From the NCBI RefSeq assembly GCF_900092025.1, contig NZ_FLTX01000053.1:1-64000 (forward strand): 64,000 nucleotides of DNA. The letters run 5' to 3'. This document shows positions 19,362 to 26,987 of the stretch, in pieces. A program made the translations under genes and the position numbers. Source of the DNA: Xanthomonas bromi. GTDB lineage: Bacteria > Pseudomonadota > Gammaproteobacteria > Xanthomonadales > Xanthomonadaceae. Position 1 is the stretch's first letter, and each line of letters begins with the position of its first letter. The notes beneath the pieces were generated by a model, which saw only the letters and a list, made by a program, of their open reading frames with translations, ran no database searches and was not told the origin of the DNA.

Positions 19362-21446
19362 ATGCAACGCCTGCTTCTTGTTTCCAGCATGCTGCTCGCG
19401 CTGTCTGCCTGCAGCGACAAAACCGCTCCCGCCGCCGAGAAAGCTGCCACACCTGCACCGGCGGCGACCGCGCCCGCAGCGCCGCCTGCGCTGATCACCC
19501 GCGATGCGCTGTTCGGCAACCCCGAGCGTGCCAATGTCAGCATCAGCCCGGACGGCAAGTATCTCAGCTGGGTGGCGCCGCTGGACGGCGTACTCAATGT
19601 CTGGATTGCGCCGGTGGATGCGCCCGATCAGGCCCGCGCGATCACCAAGGACACCGCACGCGGTATCCGCAATTACTTCTGGACCTATCAAGCCAATACC
19701 TTGCTGTACCTGCGCGACACCGGTGGCGATGAAGACTTCCACCTGTTCTCGGTCAATCTGGCCGACGGCAGCAGCAAGGACCTCACCCCGTTCAAGAAAA
19801 CCAATGCCGAGGTGTATCGCGTCAGCGCGCAGCATCCCGAATCGATCATGGTCGGCATGAACGACCGCGATGCCAAGTGGCACGATTTGTATCGCGTGGA
19901 CCTGGTGTCCGGCACACGTACGTTGGTGCAGAAAAATACCGAAAACCTGGATGCGTACCTGCTCGATGGCGACTACCTGCTGCGCTACGCCACCCGCGCC
20001 ACCGACGATGCCGGCAGAGAGTTGCTGGTGCCAGACGGCAAACGCTGGAAGAGCGTGGACCGCATCCCGTTCGAGGATGTCACCAACACCGCGCCGAACG
20101 GCCTGACCGAGGATGGCAAGACGTTGTACATGCAGGATTCGCGCAACCGCGATACCGCGGCGCTGTATGCCATCGACACTGCCAGCAACGCACGCACGCT
20201 GCTGTTCGAAAACCCGCATGCCGATGTCGGCGCCACCTTGAACGACCCCAAGACCGGCCAGGTGCAGGCGGTGTCCACCGACTACCTGCGCGAAGAATGG
20301 AAGCCGCTGGACACCGGCATTGCGGCGGACCTGCAAAAATTCAAATCGCTCGGCAATGGCGATGCCAGCGTTGCTGCACGCACGCTCGACGACCGCATCT
20401 GGATCGTTGGCTACTCCGCAGCAGAAACGCCGCTGACCTACTACCGCTACGATCGCGCCGATGGCGGCAAGCTGACCAAACTGTTCTCTGCACGACCCGC
20501 GCTGAATGGCAAACCGCTGGTCCCGATGTGGCCACAGGAACTGACCGCACGCGACGGTCTCAAGCTGGTCAGCTACCTCACCCTGCCCGCCGAAGCCGAT
20601 GCCAACCACGACGGCAAGGCCGACAAGCCGGTGCCGCTGGTGTTGTTCGTGCACGGCGGTCCGTGGGCACGCGACAGCTACGGCTACGGGCCGTACGAGC
20701 AATGGCTGGCCAACCGCGGCTATGCGGTGCTGTCGGTGAACTTCCGTGGCTCCACCGGCTTCGGCAAGGCCTTTACCAACGCCGGCAACGGCGAGTGGGC
20801 CGGCAAGATGCACGACGATCTGCTCGATGCGGTGCAATGGGCGGTCAAGCAAGGCGTCACCCAACCCGACGACGTTGCCATCATGGGTGGCAGCTACGGC
20901 GGCTACGCCACGCTGGTCGGTATGACCTTCACCCCGGACGCCTTCAAATGCGGCGTGGATATCGTGGGGCCAGCCAATCTCAACACCTTGCTCAGCACGG
21001 TGCCGCCGTACTGGGCCAGCTTCTACAAGCAGCTGACCAGGCGCATGGGCGACCCCGCCACCGAGGCCGGCAAGCAGTGGCTGACCGAACGCTCTCCGCT
21101 CACGCATGCCGACAAGATCAGCAAGCCGCTATTGATCGGCCAGGGCGCTAACGACCCACGCGTCAAACAGGCCGAAAGCGACCAGATCGTCAACGCGATG
21201 AAGGCCAAGAACATTCCGGTCACCTACGTGCTGTTCCCCGACGAAGGCCACGGCTTCCGCCGCCCGGAAAACAGCAAGGCCTTCAACGCGGTGACCGAAA
21301 GTTTCCTGAGCCAATGCCTGGGCGGACGCGTGCAACCGATCGGTGCGGATCTGGAAGGCTCCAGCATCACCGTCCCGGAGGGCGCCGACAAGATCAACGC
21401 TCTGAGCGATGCCCTGAAGACGCATACGCAGGCGATTCGGAAGTAG
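19362..21446 (+). CDS. S9 prolyl-oligopeptidase-family lipoprotein peptidase
   Basis: This 694-residue protein has a lipoprotein signal with lipobox LSAC (Cys about 17), a beta-propeller-like N-terminal region (about 45-400) and a C-terminal alpha/beta hydrolase domain. GGSYGGYA carries the catalytic Ser (about 511); GQGANDPRVK and FPDEGHGF supply Asp and His. It is likely an envelope dipeptidyl or acylaminoacyl peptidase. GGAGG precedes the ATG. It stands as a single gene with a hairpin terminator downstream. Confidence 0.87.
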   Translation: MQRLLLVSSMLLALSACSDKTAPAAEKAATPAPAATAPAAPPALITRDALFGNPERANVSISPDGKYLSWVAPLDGVLNVWIAPVDAPDQARAITKDTARGIRNYFWTYQANTLLYLRDTGGDEDFHLFSVNLADGSSKDLTPFKKTNAEVYRVSAQHPESIMVGMNDRDAKWHDLYRVDLVSGTRTLVQKNTENLDAYLLDGDYLLRYATRATDDAGRELLVPDGKRWKSVDRIPFEDVTNTAPNGLTEDGKTLYMQDSRNRDTAALYAIDTASNARTLLFENPHADVGATLNDPKTGQVQAVSTDYLREEWKPLDTGIAADLQKFKSLGNGDASVAARTLDDRIWIVGYSAAETPLTYYRYDRADGGKLTKLFSARPALNGKPLVPMWPQELTARDGLKLVSYLTLPAEADANHDGKADKPVPLVLFVHGGPWARDSYGYGPYEQWLANRGYAVLSVNFRGSTGFGKAFTNAGNGEWAGKMHDDLLDAVQWAVKQGVTQPDDVAIMGGSYGGYATLVGMTFTPDAFKCGVDIVGPANLNTLLSTVPPYWASFYKQLTRRMGDPATEAGKQWLTERSPLTHADKISKPLLIGQGANDPRVKQAESDQIVNAMKAKNIPVTYVLFPDEGHGFRRPENSKAFNAVTESFLSQCLGGRVQPIGADLEGSSITVPEGADKINALSDALKTHTQAIRK

Positions 21447-21477
21447 GCGACCTGGGTCACCCCCGCGTTGCGTGCAA

Positions 21478-21512
21478 GGCAGTCCTCGCTGTTACCGCGA
21501 GGACTGCCCCTT
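21478..21512 (+). terminator. Rho-independent-type hairpin after the S9 peptidase gene
   Basis: A perfect 12-base stem (21478-21489 with 21497-21508) encloses a 7-base loop and is followed by CCTT. The stem is strong but the T-run is weak. Confidence 0.6.
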
Positions 21513-21692
21513 GGATTGCGTATGCTCTGACCAGGCAACGCTATCGCTGGCCCACCTATCGAAGCTTGGATTACAAATCAGCGCCAAGGCAATTCGATTG
21601 CATCGCTGCGTTTACTGCTGACAGCCCAGCAACTCCAAACTCGAAGACAGCCGCCCTGCATTGGTCATGTGCCGCGAGATCTGGAAGATCTG

Positions 21693-22901
21693 TTAATGCT
21701 GCTCAAGGTCGTTGGATAGATCCCGAGCGCGATCGGACTGCCATACGGCTCCATTGGGATCCAGCTCGGTGTTCGTCATCTCTTCGGCGCGCCAACCGAA
21801 TCCGCAGATGGCCAGTGGACCGTCCTGCAAGCCATCCAGGCCCAATGCCTGCTCGATGTCCACCTCATTGATGGCCGACGTCACGAATGCTCCCAGCCCC
21901 AGATCGGTGGCGCTCAGATAGAGCGTCTGCGCGATATGGCCAACGTCGAGAATCATCGCGCGATAAGCCTTGGCGTGGTTTCGATACTTCCAGAAGCTAC
22001 GCAAAAAACGAGGCGCCAGAATCAGCAGCACCGGCGCTTCGGCAAACCAGTGCTGACCGGAGAGCGCTCGACGCGCGAGATCTGGCAGCGGCTCAGGCGG
22101 CGTCGCCATGGGCTGCAGCGCATGGTCGATTGGACGGTAGTGGTACAGCCCGCTTGGCATGCCTTCGACGCGCTGAATCAACAGATAGGTCTCCGTGGGA
22201 TGCAAACTTCCTCCCGAAGGCACCGGCTTTTTTAAAAACGCGGTCCCCTGTCCCACCGCAACGCGCGCACTCGCCATGACGCTACGTTGGAGCATGTGAC
22301 TCAACAACTCGCCTGATAGCGCGCGCTGCGTATCGAAATTGCGGCAGGTCACACGGCGCGACAACAGGTCATCGAAGGTGCCGGGTGTCGCACGCGGCAG
22401 CGTGATCCGTGCAGCATCACCTCCTACGCCACGCTCCACGACTTCGGCAGGCGGTGCGCCCAGGCGATCCACCATCCCCTCGGCGGTTGTCAGGCCTTGC
22501 GCTTCCATCGTCGCTACGCTGTCCTCACCTTTCCAGCGTGCAGAACGATGCCAAAGCGCGGCCAACGGCCACCAGCGCTGCTGCTGAACCCGCTCGTCAT
22601 GCTGCCGGTGGGTTGCGTGCTCGGGTTGATCGCTGATCGCAAGACCTTGATCGAGCAGACGCCCCATCCAGGCTGGCGGTGATTGCAAGGGATCGACCGG
22701 CTGCCAGCGTGTAGGACTGAGTTGACTTAACCAGTCACGCTCGTGCGTCGCGACTTCCACTTCGTCATCAAGGTGGGGAGCGAGCGCCAGCCAACGGGTA
22801 CGGCGGCGCAGACCATCACCACCCGCAAGCAATTGGGCAAGATCGAACGTCGCATCGTCGCGAAGCTCGAAGAACAGCGTGGCACAGCGACGAATCTGCA
22901 T
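21693..22901 (-). CDS. SagB-like dehydrogenase of a putative RiPP maturation system
   Basis: This 402-residue protein has a poorly conserved N-terminal part (about 1-180) and a C-terminal FMN nitroreductase/SagB-type domain (RRVTCRNFDTQRALS, PSGGSLHPTETYLL, GLYHYRP, DVGHIAQTLYLSATDLGLGAF). SagB enzymes oxidise azolines to azoles in modified peptides. I recall a model for a putative peptide maturation dehydrogenase found with the leader-peptide and cyclase families seen next door. It is divergent from the precursor gene. No SagC/D cyclodehydratase is present, so its substrate may not be an azoline. Confidence 0.8.
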   Translation of the reverse strand: MQIRRCATLFFELRDDATFDLAQLLAGGDGLRRRTRWLALAPHLDDEVEVATHERDWLSQLSPTRWQPVDPLQSPPAWMGRLLDQGLAISDQPEHATHRQHDERVQQQRWWPLAALWHRSARWKGEDSVATMEAQGLTTAEGMVDRLGAPPAEVVERGVGGDAARITLPRATPGTFDDLLSRRVTCRNFDTQRALSGELLSHMLQRSVMASARVAVGQGTAFLKKPVPSGGSLHPTETYLLIQRVEGMPSGLYHYRPIDHALQPMATPPEPLPDLARRALSGQHWFAEAPVLLILAPRFLRSFWKYRNHAKAYRAMILDVGHIAQTLYLSATDLGLGAFVTSAINEVDIEQALGLDGLQDGPLAICGFGWRAEEMTNTELDPNGAVWQSDRARDLSNDLEQH

Positions 22902-22926
22902 GGAGACATCTCAAGGACACATGAGC

Positions 22927-23325
22927 ATGGTCGATATTGTCTCAGGTATGCCATCACACATGCCCCCTCACCCTGCGGACAAGACGATGACTGACTCAGC
23001 CGACAATGCGCACCTTCCGTTCGATGCATCCACTGCCGACAGGCTGCTGGAGCTGCTGTCCAACGACGACAGTTTTCGCGACCGCTTTCAATGCAACCCA
23101 GCGCAGGCGCTCGCCCAGATCGGGGTTGCCGGCGCGAGTGCCGACAAGGGCGTGCCCAGTGCAGGAGAACCCTATTACTGCATGACGACCGGTCAGCTCG
23201 CTCCCAAGGAGGACATTGCGCTGGCGCGTGCCGAGTTACAGAGCTATCTGACGGAGACGACCAATCACACCGTCATCTTCGCTTTCGAATCCGAAAGTAT
23301 TCGCTCTACCCTGCTGCGCAGGTAA
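22927..23325 (+). CDS. NHLP-related RiPP precursor-like peptide
   Basis: This peptide of about 132 residues (112 if ATG 22987 is used) resembles nitrile-hydratase-alpha-like leader peptides. It has a helical leader (ADRLLELLSNDDSFRDRFQ, then NPAQALAQIGV), a Cys-containing YYCMTTGQLAP segment, and a charged C-terminus. Only two cysteines remain in the core half or near it, few for a heterocyclised product. ATG 22927 has AAGGA nine bases upstream; ATG 22987 matches the usual leader start better. Its 3' end overlaps the antisense cyclase gene by 61 bases. Product structure unknown. Confidence 0.72.
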   Translation: MVDIVSGMPSHMPPHPADKTMTDSADNAHLPFDASTADRLLELLSNDDSFRDRFQCNPAQALAQIGVAGASADKGVPSAGEPYYCMTTGQLAPKEDIALARAELQSYLTETTNHTVIFAFESESIRSTLLRR

Positions 23326-25925
23326 GCAGGTAGACGCGATGCAGGCCAGGCGTTCACGAACGCCTGCGCCTGCTCGCGGGCCTCCTGGGTACGGCCCAGT
23401 GCATACAACGACTCGGCGGCCCATAACTGGGCTAACCGCGTGTGCGCCACATTGAGCGGCTGCAGCGTCTGCGACGCGTTCGCTTCGATATAAGCGCGCC
23501 CGCGCTGAAGAGACAGCCAGCGTGCTTGCTGCAGTGCCTCCGCATGCCGTCCGCTGTCATGCAACAACGTGTACAAGGTCACGCGTGTCTGCAGCAGATC
23601 GTCAGGCCTGACAGGCAGGCGGGCCAGGGCTGCTGCGCGATCCCCTGACAGCGCCAGATGCTGGGCTTCGACGATCGCGCGTAATTCGGCAAGTACAGGT
23701 GTTTCATGCGCGAGCGCAGGCTTGATCGCCGAAAGCGCCCGTGCAGTGAACTGATCGTCGCCATTACGCTGGGCCTGGCTAACCAGGGCCAGCACCATCG
23801 CGGCGTCATCCTGCAGGTTTGGCTCGGCCGGGCCGTTGGTCGTTATTGCAGCCACAAGCGCATCAAACGCCGAACTCATCTTCGGGCCCACGGGTACCGT
23901 TTCGCCAGTGATGGCGGCGGTAGTCGCCCCAATCACCAGGAATTGACGATAGTTGAAATCATCAGTGCGCTTGCTGCGTTTCAGGGCCTGTGCCATCGCA
24001 GCATTCGCATCCGCCCAATTCGCCTGATCCAGCGCGATGCTGGTGCGGTCGATCAGCGGCACCACGTCGTCATTGGCGTAGCCATTCTCTACAATTCGGT
24101 CGAGGGCTCGCCGTGCATCGGCATAACGACCCAGCACTGCCAAGGTATCGGCTTTGCGGCGCAGCGGACCTGCCCGATCCCCATCGGCCAAGTTTTCGAA
24201 GCGCTGCAACGCGGCCTCGACTTTCCCTTGCGCCAGCAGGATGCGTCCGATCCGATCCGATGCAATGGAGCGCAGCGGATCCTGGACGACGTCGGCAGCC
24301 TGCGCATATGGCAGAGCATCGGCAAAGCGGTTGGCCACAAACAAATGCCACGACGTATTGGCGGCGCCGGCAAAATTGTCCGGATACAGCGACGCCAAGG
24401 TTCTCCACAGTGGCAATGCGGTGTTCACCGCCCGCAATTCGGCGATCCAGGCATCTAGATAGAGCTGATCACGCGCCGGCAAGCGCTGGCGTAACCGAAC
24501 CGCGTTATCCAGATACGGAAGCGCGCCCTTGCGGTCGGACACCGCAACCTTGATGCGCGCCGCACCCAGGTACGCTAACGCAAACGTCGGGTCGACCCTG
24601 ACCGCGCGATCGAACAGCTCCAAGCCCTCACGCCAACGACCGTCTGCAGTGGCTTCCACGCCGAGAGCATACGCACGCAACGCGTCCAGGCTCGATGTTG
24701 TGACTGCCGGTAATGGCACCGAACTCTTGTCGATCGACGCAACCATCTCGCCCAGCCCCAGCCGGAGCTTACGGGTGATTTGATCCACCGAAGACAGGGT
24801 AGACGGCAAGCCGTCTCCTTGTACAAACTCCGAATACACGGTTATTTGCGTGCGCGGATCCACCAGCTCTACGCTGAGACGTAATTTCCCGCCGACTTCA
24901 GCCACGGTCGGCAGAAGAACAGCGCGGGCGCCATCACGCAACGCTACCTCCGACGCTACGCTGCGATCGAGAAAAACCGTGCTGGGATCGCGCTTCATTC
25001 GTGCGACGGTATCGCGCACCTTCATGGCGCTCAGGACATTGACGTACCGCGACTGCTCAAGGCTGACGCGTAGCGCCTGTTCCAGCGCGCCATCGAGCAG
25101 TGTATTTCCAGTGAGATTCCGCACATCGCCAACCACCACCCAATCGCGCTCGCCAAACGCAATCGCAGGCTGCGGTCGAATGAAAAACCACACCGCGATT
25201 CCCACCGCCAGTACCACTCCCAGCTCGGCCGCCAACGCGGCCGGTCTGCGCCACAGCGGCACATCGCGCCAGGCTTTTGCCGAATTCTTCGGCAGGCGCA
25301 GAGGGGTCAGGCCGACGTCGCCGACTTCGTAGATCTCCATCGCGGTGGGCATGCCCTTGAAGCGCCAGCGGCCGTGCGATTTCCATAACAACCGCTCGGC
25401 GCGACCACCGAGTTCGCGTGCGGCGTGGTGGGTCAACGATTCGGCTACCGCCGAGATCAGGATCTGCCCAGGCCGTGCCATCGACATCAGGCGTGCGGCG
25501 GTGGGCTTGGCCAGGCCTTCGACTTCCAGCGGCTTGGCACCGATGCTGACCGCTTCTTCGCTGTTGCGCCAGGTCAGCACTTCGCCGACATGCAGGCCCT
25601 GGCGGGCGCGGAGCGTCAGCGTGTGCGCATCGCCCATCGTCTTGAGCCCACGCGCGTAATCCAGCGCAAAACCCAGGCCATCGATGGGGCGATCGAACAG
25701 CAGCAGCAGGCCGTCGGAACGATCGATCAGCCGGCCGCGCCAGTGCTGCTGCAGCTTGACCACCAGGCGGTCGTGCTCGCGGAACAGAGCAGCAGCAGCG
25801 TTATCGCCGATACGTTCGACCAGCGCGGTCGAATCGCACAGATCGGTCAGCAGCAAGGTCCGCAGACGCGGCGCCTGGATCGCTTCCGACGACGCGTCCT
25901 TGCGTGCGTGGGTGCGGTTGCTCAT
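23265..25925 (-). CDS. Class III cyclase-TPR protein of a putative peptide modification system
   Basis: This 886-residue protein has an N-terminal class III nucleotide cyclase domain (about 20-190), one transmembrane helix near 225-250, then a periplasm-facing region and TPR-like helical repeats (about 400-850). Metal Asp candidates are in LLLTDLCDST and RSDGLLLLF, and RQGLHVGEV is conserved. The transition-state motif is altered (KPTAARL instead of the usual N-x-x-AARL), and no Lys selector before the second Asp is apparent, so activity or base specificity may differ. I recall this family as a putative peptide modification system cyclase. It follows the GGDEF gene by three bases. Confidence 0.75.
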   Translation of the reverse strand: MSNRTHARKDASSEAIQAPRLRTLLLTDLCDSTALVERIGDNAAAALFREHDRLVVKLQQHWRGRLIDRSDGLLLLFDRPIDGLGFALDYARGLKTMGDAHTLTLRARQGLHVGEVLTWRNSEEAVSIGAKPLEVEGLAKPTAARLMSMARPGQILISAVAESLTHHAARELGGRAERLLWKSHGRWRFKGMPTAMEIYEVGDVGLTPLRLPKNSAKAWRDVPLWRRPAALAAELGVVLAVGIAVWFFIRPQPAIAFGERDWVVVGDVRNLTGNTLLDGALEQALRVSLEQSRYVNVLSAMKVRDTVARMKRDPSTVFLDRSVASEVALRDGARAVLLPTVAEVGGKLRLSVELVDPRTQITVYSEFVQGDGLPSTLSSVDQITRKLRLGLGEMVASIDKSSVPLPAVTTSSLDALRAYALGVEATADGRWREGLELFDRAVRVDPTFALAYLGAARIKVAVSDRKGALPYLDNAVRLRQRLPARDQLYLDAWIAELRAVNTALPLWRTLASLYPDNFAGAANTSWHLFVANRFADALPYAQAADVVQDPLRSIASDRIGRILLAQGKVEAALQRFENLADGDRAGPLRRKADTLAVLGRYADARRALDRIVENGYANDDVVPLIDRTSIALDQANWADANAAMAQALKRSKRTDDFNYRQFLVIGATTAAITGETVPVGPKMSSAFDALVAAITTNGPAEPNLQDDAAMVLALVSQAQRNGDDQFTARALSAIKPALAHETPVLAELRAIVEAQHLALSGDRAAALARLPVRPDDLLQTRVTLYTLLHDSGRHAEALQQARWLSLQRGRAYIEANASQTLQPLNVAHTRLAQLWAAESLYALGRTQEAREQAQAFVNAWPASRLPAYLRSRVERILSDSKAKMTV

Positions 25926-25928
25926 CGC

Positions 25929-26987
25929 TCAGCGATGACCCGAGGCAGGCGGTTGATTCAGGGCGAGCGTCTCCTGCATGCACAGCACGTTGCCGCCCTG
26001 CCGCTTGGCTTCGTACAAGGCGCGGTCGGCGAGTGTGTACCAGTCGTTCCAGGCCGCGTCCGCATCGATGATGCACAAGCCCACGCTGACCGAGCAGCCC
26101 TGTTCGCCCTGGCCGTTGCACAGCCGCGCTTCCACCGCCCGCACGATGCATTCGCCGATGTGGTGCACCAACTCGCTGGTGCCTTGTGCGACGAGCACGC
26201 AAAATTCATCGCCGCCGAGGCGGCAGGCGAGATCGCCTTCGGCGATCACCGAACGCAAGGCATGCGCCACGTTCTGCAGCACGCGGTCGCCTGCCAGATG
26301 GCCGAACTCGTCGTTGATGCGCTTGAAGCGGTCGCAGTCGATCAGGATCAGGCCAACGCCCGGCACCTGGCCGGCGCGCCGGCATTCCTGCAGGTGCAAC
26401 GCCAGCCCACGTCGATTGTGCAAGCCGGTGAGCTCGTCGGTGCGGCTCAGTTCTTCGGTATGGTTGAGCTGGTGCGAGGTGACGTAGAGATTGTCCAGCG
26501 CCGCTTCCAGATCGTGGTTGCGGCGGCGCAACTGGCGGATCAGCAGTTGTTCGTTGTTGACCACCCGCACGATGGAGCGGCGCAGGAAGTGCGCCACCAT
26601 CGAGGGGTCCTGGTTCACCAGGCGCTGAAAATCGGCGTGTCCCAGCTCGATCAGGCGGCTATCGGTGCTGGCGCTGGCGCCCGCGCTGCGCGCGTGGTCG
26701 CCGATCAGCAGGCCAAGCTCGCCGAAGAATTCGCCGGGGCCGAGATGCTTGAGCATCAGATCTTCACCGAAATCCAGATCGATCTGGCCGCTGACAACGA
26801 TGTACATCTGCGTGCCGACTTCACCGCGATCGAACAGCGACTGGCCCGCAGACACTTCGCGCGAACGACCGAAACGGGCGAAAAACGCCAGTTCTTCAGC
26901 TGTCATCAGCGCATGCAGCCCGTCGGGGAGCGTCTTGGCAACGCTCCCCGACGGCTCACCTACGCCCGCGGTGTTGTGGCAAGTCAT
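25929..26987 (-). CDS. Diguanylate cyclase with N-terminal cyclic-nucleotide-binding domain
   Basis: This 352-residue protein has a CRP-like cNMP-binding domain (about 30-150, including GPGEFFGELGLLIGDHARSAG), a linker helix and a GGDEF domain with intact RLGGDEF. An upstream RxxD I-site is not obvious. It should make c-di-GMP in response to a ligand bound by the CNB domain. Lying three bases upstream of the cyclase-TPR gene in the same operon, it could read that enzyme's product. In xanthomonads c-di-GMP controls motility, biofilm and virulence. Confidence 0.88.
   Translation of the reverse strand: MTCHNTAGVGEPSGSVAKTLPDGLHALMTAEELAFFARFGRSREVSAGQSLFDRGEVGTQMYIVVSGQIDLDFGEDLMLKHLGPGEFFGELGLLIGDHARSAGASASTDSRLIELGHADFQRLVNQDPSMVAHFLRRSIVRVVNNEQLLIRQLRRRNHDLEAALDNLYVTSHQLNHTEELSRTDELTGLHNRRGLALHLQECRRAGQVPGVGLILIDCDRFKRINDEFGHLAGDRVLQNVAHALRSVIAEGDLACRLGGDEFCVLVAQGTSELVHHIGECIVRAVEARLCNGQGEQGCSVSVGLCIIDADAAWNDWYTLADRALYEAKRQGGNVLCMQETLALNQPPASGHR

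Follow-up and report, generated by a model that had tools for sequence, protein, structure and literature searches.

In the 64,000-nucleotide stretch of Xanthomonas bromi DNA analyzed here (the window; assembly GCF_900092025.1, contig NZ_FLTX01000053.1, positions 1 to 64,000), a SagB-type dehydrogenase, a small NHLP-related precursor peptide and the outer, TPR-containing half of a class III guanylate cyclase form a cassette whose parts switch together, as discrete types, on an output module and flanks that are conserved. We propose that this locus encodes a polymorphic modified-peptide signal together with its receptor guanylate cyclase, resembling the agr and ComQXPA systems and with an output that runs from cyclic GMP (cGMP) to cyclic di-GMP (c-di-GMP), and we give this reading a probability of roughly 0.6. 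The features concerned are the following.

21693..22901, minus strand: SagB-type flavin mononucleotide (FMN) dehydrogenase, 402 amino acids (aa); 577.9 bits to TIGR04511 (cut-off 240) and 124.4 bits to the SagB domain model TIGR03605 (cut-off 78.4), with a match to Pfam Nitroreductase; within the type-specific cassette.
22987..23325, plus strand: NHLP-related precursor, 112 aa; 111.2 bits to TIGR04509 (cut-off 34); leader kept across types, C-terminal tail type-specific.
23263..23322, plus strand: putative core, the final 20 residues of the precursor; best-conserved part within types A, B and C, different between types.
23265..25925, minus strand: class III guanylate cyclase with one membrane helix and a predicted outer TPR domain, 886 aa; 1210.3 bits to TIGR04510 (cut-off 400).
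25311..25877, minus strand: cyclase catalytic domain, residues 17-205; kept in every type.
25176..25235, minus strand: cyclase membrane helix, approximately residues 231-250; single hydrophobic helix, hydropathy maximum at 231.
23268..25127, minus strand: predicted outer sensor of the cyclase, residues 267-886; type-specific, the drop in identity starting at residue 267.
25929..26987, minus strand: cyclic nucleotide monophosphate (cNMP)-binding diguanylate cyclase of the XC_0249 family, 352 aa, the fourth member; Pfam cNMP_binding and GGDEF; kept in every type.
21450..25127, no strand: exchangeable cassette (dehydrogenase, precursor, outer half of the cyclase), with approximate edges from the DNA identity profile of five cross-type pairs and from the residue profile.
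19362..21446: S9 prolyl-oligopeptidase with a lipoprotein-like N-terminus (lipobox read from the sequence by eye); conserved flank, not part of the variable unit.

The joint exchange was examined in 25 of 35 genomes of the same genus (the window's own included). Five genomes lack the locus (G002, G004, G011, G022, G032), in four it is damaged (decayed in G007 and G027, the dehydrogenase split in G029 and lost in G033), and the contig of G018, whose precursor is of a further type, ends before the S9 gene. For the alignments the single best open frame of each locus was taken, subject to limits on length; they hold 42 of 45 dehydrogenase, 47 of 48 cyclase and 29 of 46 diguanylate cyclase rows, window included. 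Types were assigned by the precursor tail as A (13 genomes), B (4), C (6), D (1), and F (1). Wherever a cyclase is found in the genus, its residues 17-205 share 80-99% identity with the window protein, but in 13 genomes the identity over residues 271-832 is only 22-57%. The precursor C-termini differ in the same 13 genomes, in which any GGDEF, S9, isocitrate lyase or carboxylase protein that is present is still 81-96% identical to its window counterpart. Identities within and between types are, respectively, 0.83 and 0.35 for the sensor (residues 275-832), 0.80 and 0.34 for the precursor and 0.83 and 0.45 for the dehydrogenase, as against 0.96 and 0.94 for the catalytic domain, 0.92 and 0.90 for the GGDEF protein, 0.94 and 0.93 for isocitrate lyase, 0.88 and 0.88 for the S9 peptidase and 0.88 and 0.86 for the carboxylase.

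Label-free Mantel tests, with the distance of the flanks partialled out, gave correlations of 0.98 for sensor and precursor, 0.99 for sensor and dehydrogenase and 0.98 for dehydrogenase and precursor (0 of 2000 permutations as high), and as controls 0.09 for catalytic domain and precursor (378/2000), 0.17 for GGDEF protein and precursor (103/2000) and 0.11 for catalytic domain and sensor (340/2000). Because the S9 proteins of G009 and G010 are fragments (382 and 109 aa), the tests were repeated on 24 genomes with S9 and G010 left out, and on 22 genomes with types D and F removed as well; the cassette pairs then gave 0.97-0.99 and the controls -0.08 to 0.07. The S9 distances fit those of the other genes poorly (r -0.02 to 0.19), in part because of these fragments, and the S9 peptidase was discarded as a variable member, its identity within types equaling that between them (0.91 and 0.89 without G010). 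Five strains named X. arboricola hold three of the types, namely A (pv. juglandis CFBP 2528, pv. guizotiae and CFBP 7645), B (pv. populi) and C (NL_P126); the source collection lists them as separate species. Type F cassettes, seen in G014 (L042) and at the loci L130-L133, have shorter precursors of ~78 aa, and in G014 the dehydrogenase lies on the precursor's strand and is not divergent.

The edges of the cassette can be read from both DNA and protein. In five cross-type pairs compared in 200-bp bins, DNA identity is 36-68% in every bin across window positions 21601-25200 and mostly 83-99% outside them, with lower values of 71-93% in intergenic bins. A profile of the cyclase in 10-residue bins (24 of the 25 genomes) shows identity between types equal to that within types in the sampled bins up to residue 226, values of 0.69, 0.33, and 0.68 between versus 0.80, 0.51, and 0.82 within types over the helix and linker, near equality at residues 257-266 (0.88 versus 0.90), and a drop from residue 267 onward, to 0.46 between versus 0.90 within types. 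With its edge just past the membrane helix, this profile indicates that the outer part of the cyclase is exchanged and the cytosolic part is not. The topology itself, with the catalytic domain probably inside and the TPR domain outside, is predicted from the one hydrophobic helix and the arginines on its catalytic side.

Mapped onto the flank tree, the types require 9 changes (mean of the shuffles 11.0; 12 of 200 shuffles reach as few), and G014 (type F) and G034 (type C) are sisters there. The cassette tree requires 4 changes, the minimum, with A, B, and C each on one side of a well supported branch. The pattern recurs in a second genus, of whose 20 genomes 18 have the locus (plain correlations without permutation, the dehydrogenase being the part within the extracted locus). 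No pair there falls below 90% identity in the catalytic domain or the GGDEF protein, and the sensors range from 28 to 100% in about six groups. The correlations there are 0.95 for sensor and precursor and 0.94 for sensor and dehydrogenase, compared with 0.12 for catalytic domain and sensor and 0.24 for GGDEF protein and sensor. Some sensors of this genus resemble Xanthomonas types more than those of their own genus, the F-like ones being 47% identical to Xanthomonas type F versus a median of 30-31% to their own genus and the A-like ones 51-52% identical to Xanthomonas type A versus a median of 40-41%; hence some types either predate the genera or move between them.

The four genes form one co-occurring set across genera. 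Among 100 genomes of relatives, with the precursor, cyclase and dehydrogenase counted above the NCBIfam cut-off and the diguanylate cyclase counted with the window protein as query (E up to 1e-30), there are 53 with the precursor, 51 with the cyclase and 49 with the dehydrogenase. The genes lie together in the loci examined, and their association is not due to chance. Where a member of the trio is missing the locus is decayed or at a contig end (G007, G033, G041, G045, G057). Matches to the diguanylate cyclase occur in 53 of the 100 genomes, 52 of which also have the precursor, and 46 genomes have neither; the precursor stands without it only in G007, a decayed locus at a contig end, and it stands without the precursor only in G086 (37% identical, lacking H98). 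It adjoins the cyclase in 49 of 52 cyclase-holding loci (window included) and lies elsewhere in the genome, unlinked, in G055, G071, and G080. The cyclase family was also sought in 369 genomes sampled from the class and is above cut-off in 5, all from the window's order. A preliminary description of this DNA had placed three of the genes side by side, the dehydrogenase divergent from an NHLP-like precursor and the cyclase convergent with it. Each gene proved to exceed the cut-off of its NCBIfam family, the orientations are as described, and both the homology to NHLP leaders and the co-occurrence of the homologues were borne out by profile search and neighborhood survey. The description left out the fourth conserved member, and its statement that the locus has neither peptidase nor exporter is right as regards an exporter among the conserved genes, although an S9 prolyl-oligopeptidase adjoins as conserved flank.

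Several observations on individual loci can be set beside this distribution. G055 has nine precursor matches (one with a stop), several dehydrogenase copies and one full-length cyclase within ~20 kb, and its cGMP-binding diguanylate cyclase is ~180 kb away. The dehydrogenase is lost in G033 (X. vasicola) and split by ~13 kb in G029, and several genes are broken at the loci of G007, G027 (X. phaseoli), and G045. In G011 the equivalent of window 21.6-32.7 kb, comprising the locus and isocitrate lyase of the glyoxylate shunt, is gone and ~4.5 kb of other DNA stands in its place. A clean empty site was sought in the locus-free genomes and none was readable, because of this large gap in G011, a contig of G004 that ends inside S9, and the lack of an S9 match at 1e-100 in G002, G022, and G032. 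The S9 protein at 19362-21446, beside the peptide locus, has a weak match to a lasso-peptide isopeptidase profile (58.5 bits, where 400 are needed).

Within types the cassette is under purifying selection. In ten within-type pairs, the ratio of non-synonymous to synonymous polymorphism (pN/pS) is 0.00-0.28 for all regions of the cyclase and dehydrogenase, and positive selection within types is thus not seen in either protein. Of six cyclase regions, residues 561-720 have the highest pN/pS in 6 of the 10 pairs; for S9 the ratio reaches 0.58, in a pair with the G010 fragment. The precursor, which is ~76-132 aa long and has a conserved domain, is single-copy in the window's genome (4.84 Mb) and most likely starts at the ATG at 22987, leaving a gap of 85 bp to the divergent dehydrogenase gene. 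Its tail is the best-conserved segment within types (A 0.88, B 0.95, C 0.95) and its middle the least conserved (A 0.69, B 0.67, C 0.63). Judged from the sequences, this pattern fits a ligand that is tied to one receptor within a type and differs between types. The argument rests on types B and C, because the DNA for the type A tail is shared with the cyclase gene: the last 61 bp of the window's precursor gene (23265-23325) and the cyclase's 3' end lie over one another on opposite strands, an overlap not seen in types B and C, where the cyclase gene stops short of the precursor gene.

The same data bear on two other explanations of the cassette. The TPR half might sense a host or environmental cue, or vary to evade hosts or phages, with the precursor and dehydrogenase hitchhiking between the recombination edges. 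Linkage is tight, all three would be carried along whenever homologous recombination replaces a diverged block, and the pathway has a published tie to plant infection (PMC3770947). We nevertheless consider this unlikely, given that the four genes co-occur across genera, that matched types exist in two genera, that the precursor leader is still recognizable next to a type-specific tail, and that dehydrogenase and tail are constrained within types. The RiPP-like precursor (that is, resembling those of ribosomally synthesized and post-translationally modified peptides) with its tailoring enzyme, the polymorphism of the cassette and the nine precursors and several dehydrogenase copies of G055 could instead point to a bacteriocin-type peptide directed against competitors, with the cyclase sensing its own peptide or the stress that it causes in order to time production and the types diverging by antagonism in the manner of bacteriocin-immunity pairs. 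This we also hold to be doubtful, as neither an immunity gene nor an exporter is recognized among the four conserved genes, the output runs to a diguanylate cyclase, selection within types is purifying, and it is the receptor half and not an immunity protein that is swapped with the peptide.

The output side of the proposed signal-receptor system corresponds to a characterized pathway. XC_0250 of X. campestris is a class III cyclase joined to a TPR domain described as "of uncharacterised function"; its residues 1-220 convert GTP to cGMP and form no cyclic AMP from ATP, the cNMP domain of the linked XC_0249 binds cGMP (KD, the dissociation constant, 0.293 µM), which raises its synthesis of c-di-GMP, and mutants in either gene have reduced biofilm and virulence (PMC3770947). 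XC_0249 has also been described as a partner of RpfG (PMC3749722), and passages of PMC8042644, PMC6637768 and PMC3749722 name no input signal to the cyclase. The window has the same gene pair in the same domain order, the diguanylate cyclase gene being 3 bp upstream of the cyclase gene on the same strand. The key residues reported for XC_0250 are found at the same numbers (D41, D71, L73, A150, and A161, with I and not L at 157), as are the cGMP-contact residues of XC_0249 (F73, E90, H98, N145, and E146; PMC3770947). D28, D41, D71, and A150 are present in 47 of 47 aligned cyclases, L73 in 37 (L in the window), A161 in 42, and L at position 157 in 26. Going by the class III motif, D28 (encoded at 25842-25844) would provide the first metal ligand. 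It is as invariant as D41, and the metal-binding residues named in PMC3770947 are D41 and D71. In the aligned diguanylate cyclases F73, E90, H98, and E146 occur in 29 of 29 and N145 in 21 (N in the window); the three unlinked proteins of G055, G071, and G080 keep four of the five contacts, with Ser in place of N145. The window's cNMP domain matches PDB entry 5h5o over all 129 residues (243.1 bits); the entry is probably XC_0249, although it is named only "Diguanylate cyclase" and PMC3770947 gives 4KG1.

Since the cyclase and diguanylate cyclase correspond to XC_0250 and XC_0249, the cyclase is best understood, by its sequence, as a signal transducer and not a modifying enzyme. A degenerate cyclase had been suspected because no Pfam cyclase model matched, and was dismissed in view of the invariant Asp residues and the activity of XC_0250 (PMC3770947). 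The preliminary description took the locus for a biosynthetic RiPP locus, with the cyclase part of peptide modification and its role wholly open. The NCBIfam names of the three families speak for a cyclase active in modification chemistry, and the three genes are indeed one co-occurring unit. That reading is nonetheless highly improbable and its view of the cyclase is not supported, given that XC_0250 makes cGMP (PMC3770947), that the Asp residues reported as essential are invariant, that the adjacent gene belongs to the family of the published cGMP receptor and travels along, and that the way the parts vary suggests a signal and its receptor more than plain biosynthesis. Least probable of all is a Pycsar-like anti-phage module with an unusual effector. 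The cyclase does adjoin a cyclic-nucleotide-binding protein, whose cNMP domain weakly matches PADLOC Pycsar models (36.9 bits or less); the other three proteins match no PADLOC model and the effector would be an intact GGDEF domain, so Pycsar and other defense systems were set aside.

The chemistry of the proposed peptide modification can be outlined from the dehydrogenase and its relatives. Profile searches place 3eo7, CyaGox, BmdC and McbC as its nearest solved relatives over the C-terminal flavin domain, and the ~160 N-terminal residues have no match in Pfam, NCBIfam or PDB beyond the enzyme's own family. W304-K305-Y306 is invariant in 42 of 42 aligned dehydrogenases and aligns with the W-K-Y stretch of CyaGox; this Lys-Tyr pair is presumably catalytic, as in McbC-like enzymes. 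A search for YcaO cyclodehydratases at E up to 1e-10 found none in the window's own genome and none in 51 of the 53 relatives with a precursor, so that nearly all of these genomes are unlikely to form azolines with the usual enzyme, and an azole RiPP (thiazole/oxazole-modified microcin) was rejected as the product. Cyclic dipeptide oxidases have a nitroreductase fold, and by analogy with them the dehydrogenase, lacking a YcaO partner, would oxidize the peptide directly.

How the peptide would leave the cell is less well defined. A C39 peptidase domain, sought in 61 genomes, has one full-length match elsewhere in the window's genome and none among the conserved genes of the locus, and a C39 peptidase-exporter is not supported as the general export route, no match being found in 8 of the 35 precursor-bearing genomes. 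No signal peptide was seen on the precursor, and a scan for promoters and terminators gave counts no different from shuffles. If the precursor-like protein were to stay inside, it might form with the dehydrogenase an intracellular redox- or flavin-dependent regulator with an indirect link to the outer sensor; the missing signal peptide, exporter and, in 8 of 35 genomes, C39 domain would suit it, as would a precursor of this length with a conserved domain. We regard this as quite improbable, for it leaves unexplained why the divergence of the precursor tracks the outer and not the cytosolic half of the cyclase.

The proposed signaling system would work as follows. The precursor would be made in the cytosol and its nitrile-hydratase-like leader recognized by the SagB-type dehydrogenase, which, acting without a cyclodehydratase, would carry out a two-electron oxidation. 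This would most likely desaturate a Calpha-Cbeta bond in the C-terminal tail and not turn an azoline into an azole. The tail would then be released, leave the cytosol, bind the outer TPR domain of a cyclase of the same type and alter its activity. The cytosolic domain would convert GTP to cGMP, as others have shown for X. campestris XC_0250, and cGMP would bind the adjacent diguanylate cyclase and raise c-di-GMP, with effects on biofilm formation and gene expression, as shown by others for XC_0249 (PMC3770947). Peptide, enzyme and sensor types would be swapped as one block onto this unchanged output module. Of these steps, it is tail binding to the cyclase, the dehydrogenase chemistry and export that we infer.

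A number of points weigh against this proposal. The parts of the cassette are neighbors within 3.7 kb, and co-inheritance by linkage alone could yield the same correlations. The counts based on type labels are partly circular, as the labels were drawn from the precursor tails, an objection that does not affect the Mantel tests. The cassette tree has very long branches, above all that of G014, which the program flagged as possibly misplaced, and in type A the overlap with the cyclase gene would by itself slow change in the tail. The cyclase domain alone is active and sufficient to restore biofilm formation (PMC3770947), so that input from the TPR half is not required for activity. No leader-cleavage site was recognized in the precursor, the conserved genes of the locus offer no exporter, and C39 is absent where noted above. 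The weakest points of the signal-receptor reading are the export route and the possibility that linkage alone holds the types together.

The signal-receptor reading can be placed among several known systems. The window proteins are members, well above cut-off, of the NCBIfam trio TIGR04509 (NHLP-related RiPP peptide), TIGR04510 (putative peptide modification system cyclase) and TIGR04511 (putative peptide maturation dehydrogenase), whose names give only a putative modification system, without the fourth gene, the cGMP link or the exchange of types. The pherotypes of agr in staphylococci and ComQXPA in Bacillus are exchanged as a block onto a conserved output, and there too the precursor changes together with its processing enzyme and the sensor half of the receptor, the output half staying conserved. 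No part is homologous, however, the system here having a guanylate cyclase with TPR repeats in place of a histidine kinase, a SagB-type enzyme and a Gram-negative host. With the SagB-type oxidases CyaGox, BmdC and McbC the dehydrogenase has its flavin domain in common, and it differs from them in the missing YcaO partner and the unmatched N-terminal region. Animal receptor guanylyl cyclases such as the natriuretic peptide receptors would work alike, with a peptide outside, one membrane pass and a guanylate cyclase inside; domain order and sensor fold differ, no descent is claimed, and ligand binding is here only predicted. The biochemistry of XC_0250 and XC_0249 was already known (PMC3770947), and what is new is the joint type exchange of the outer TPR half, precursor and dehydrogenase. 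A term search of the main text of PMC3770947 found neither "peptide" nor "dehydrogenase" nor "nitroreductase", the three TIGR accessions appear in no open-licence PMC paper found, and no such paper was found that joins, by title, the peptide of the RiPP trio and the Xanthomonas cGMP cyclase.

The locus is therefore of greater interest than the preliminary description suggested, and for a different reason, as an apparent polymorphic peptide-receptor system set on a known cGMP pathway. It connects two fields of knowledge, a RiPP trio named only as putative and a Xanthomonas cGMP pathway whose TPR domain has been called uncharacterized (PMC3770947), and the cue sensed by that domain and the purpose of the peptide become a single question. 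There is an even chance, in our estimation, that this is the first bacterial peptide-gated receptor guanylate cyclase, in which an oxidized ribosomal pheromone of several pherotypes, carried in Xanthomonas and related genera by exchangeable ligand-enzyme-receptor cassettes, sets the level of cGMP and then of c-di-GMP. If the signal-receptor reading is true, the Xanthomonas cGMP pathway would gain the input that it lacks, a Gram-negative genus would prove to have strain-recognition groups, and a SagB-type enzyme would be seen to work without a cyclodehydratase; the locus would be a counterpart of agr and ComQXPA that is Gram-negative and built on a cyclase, in which cGMP is the first intracellular messenger.

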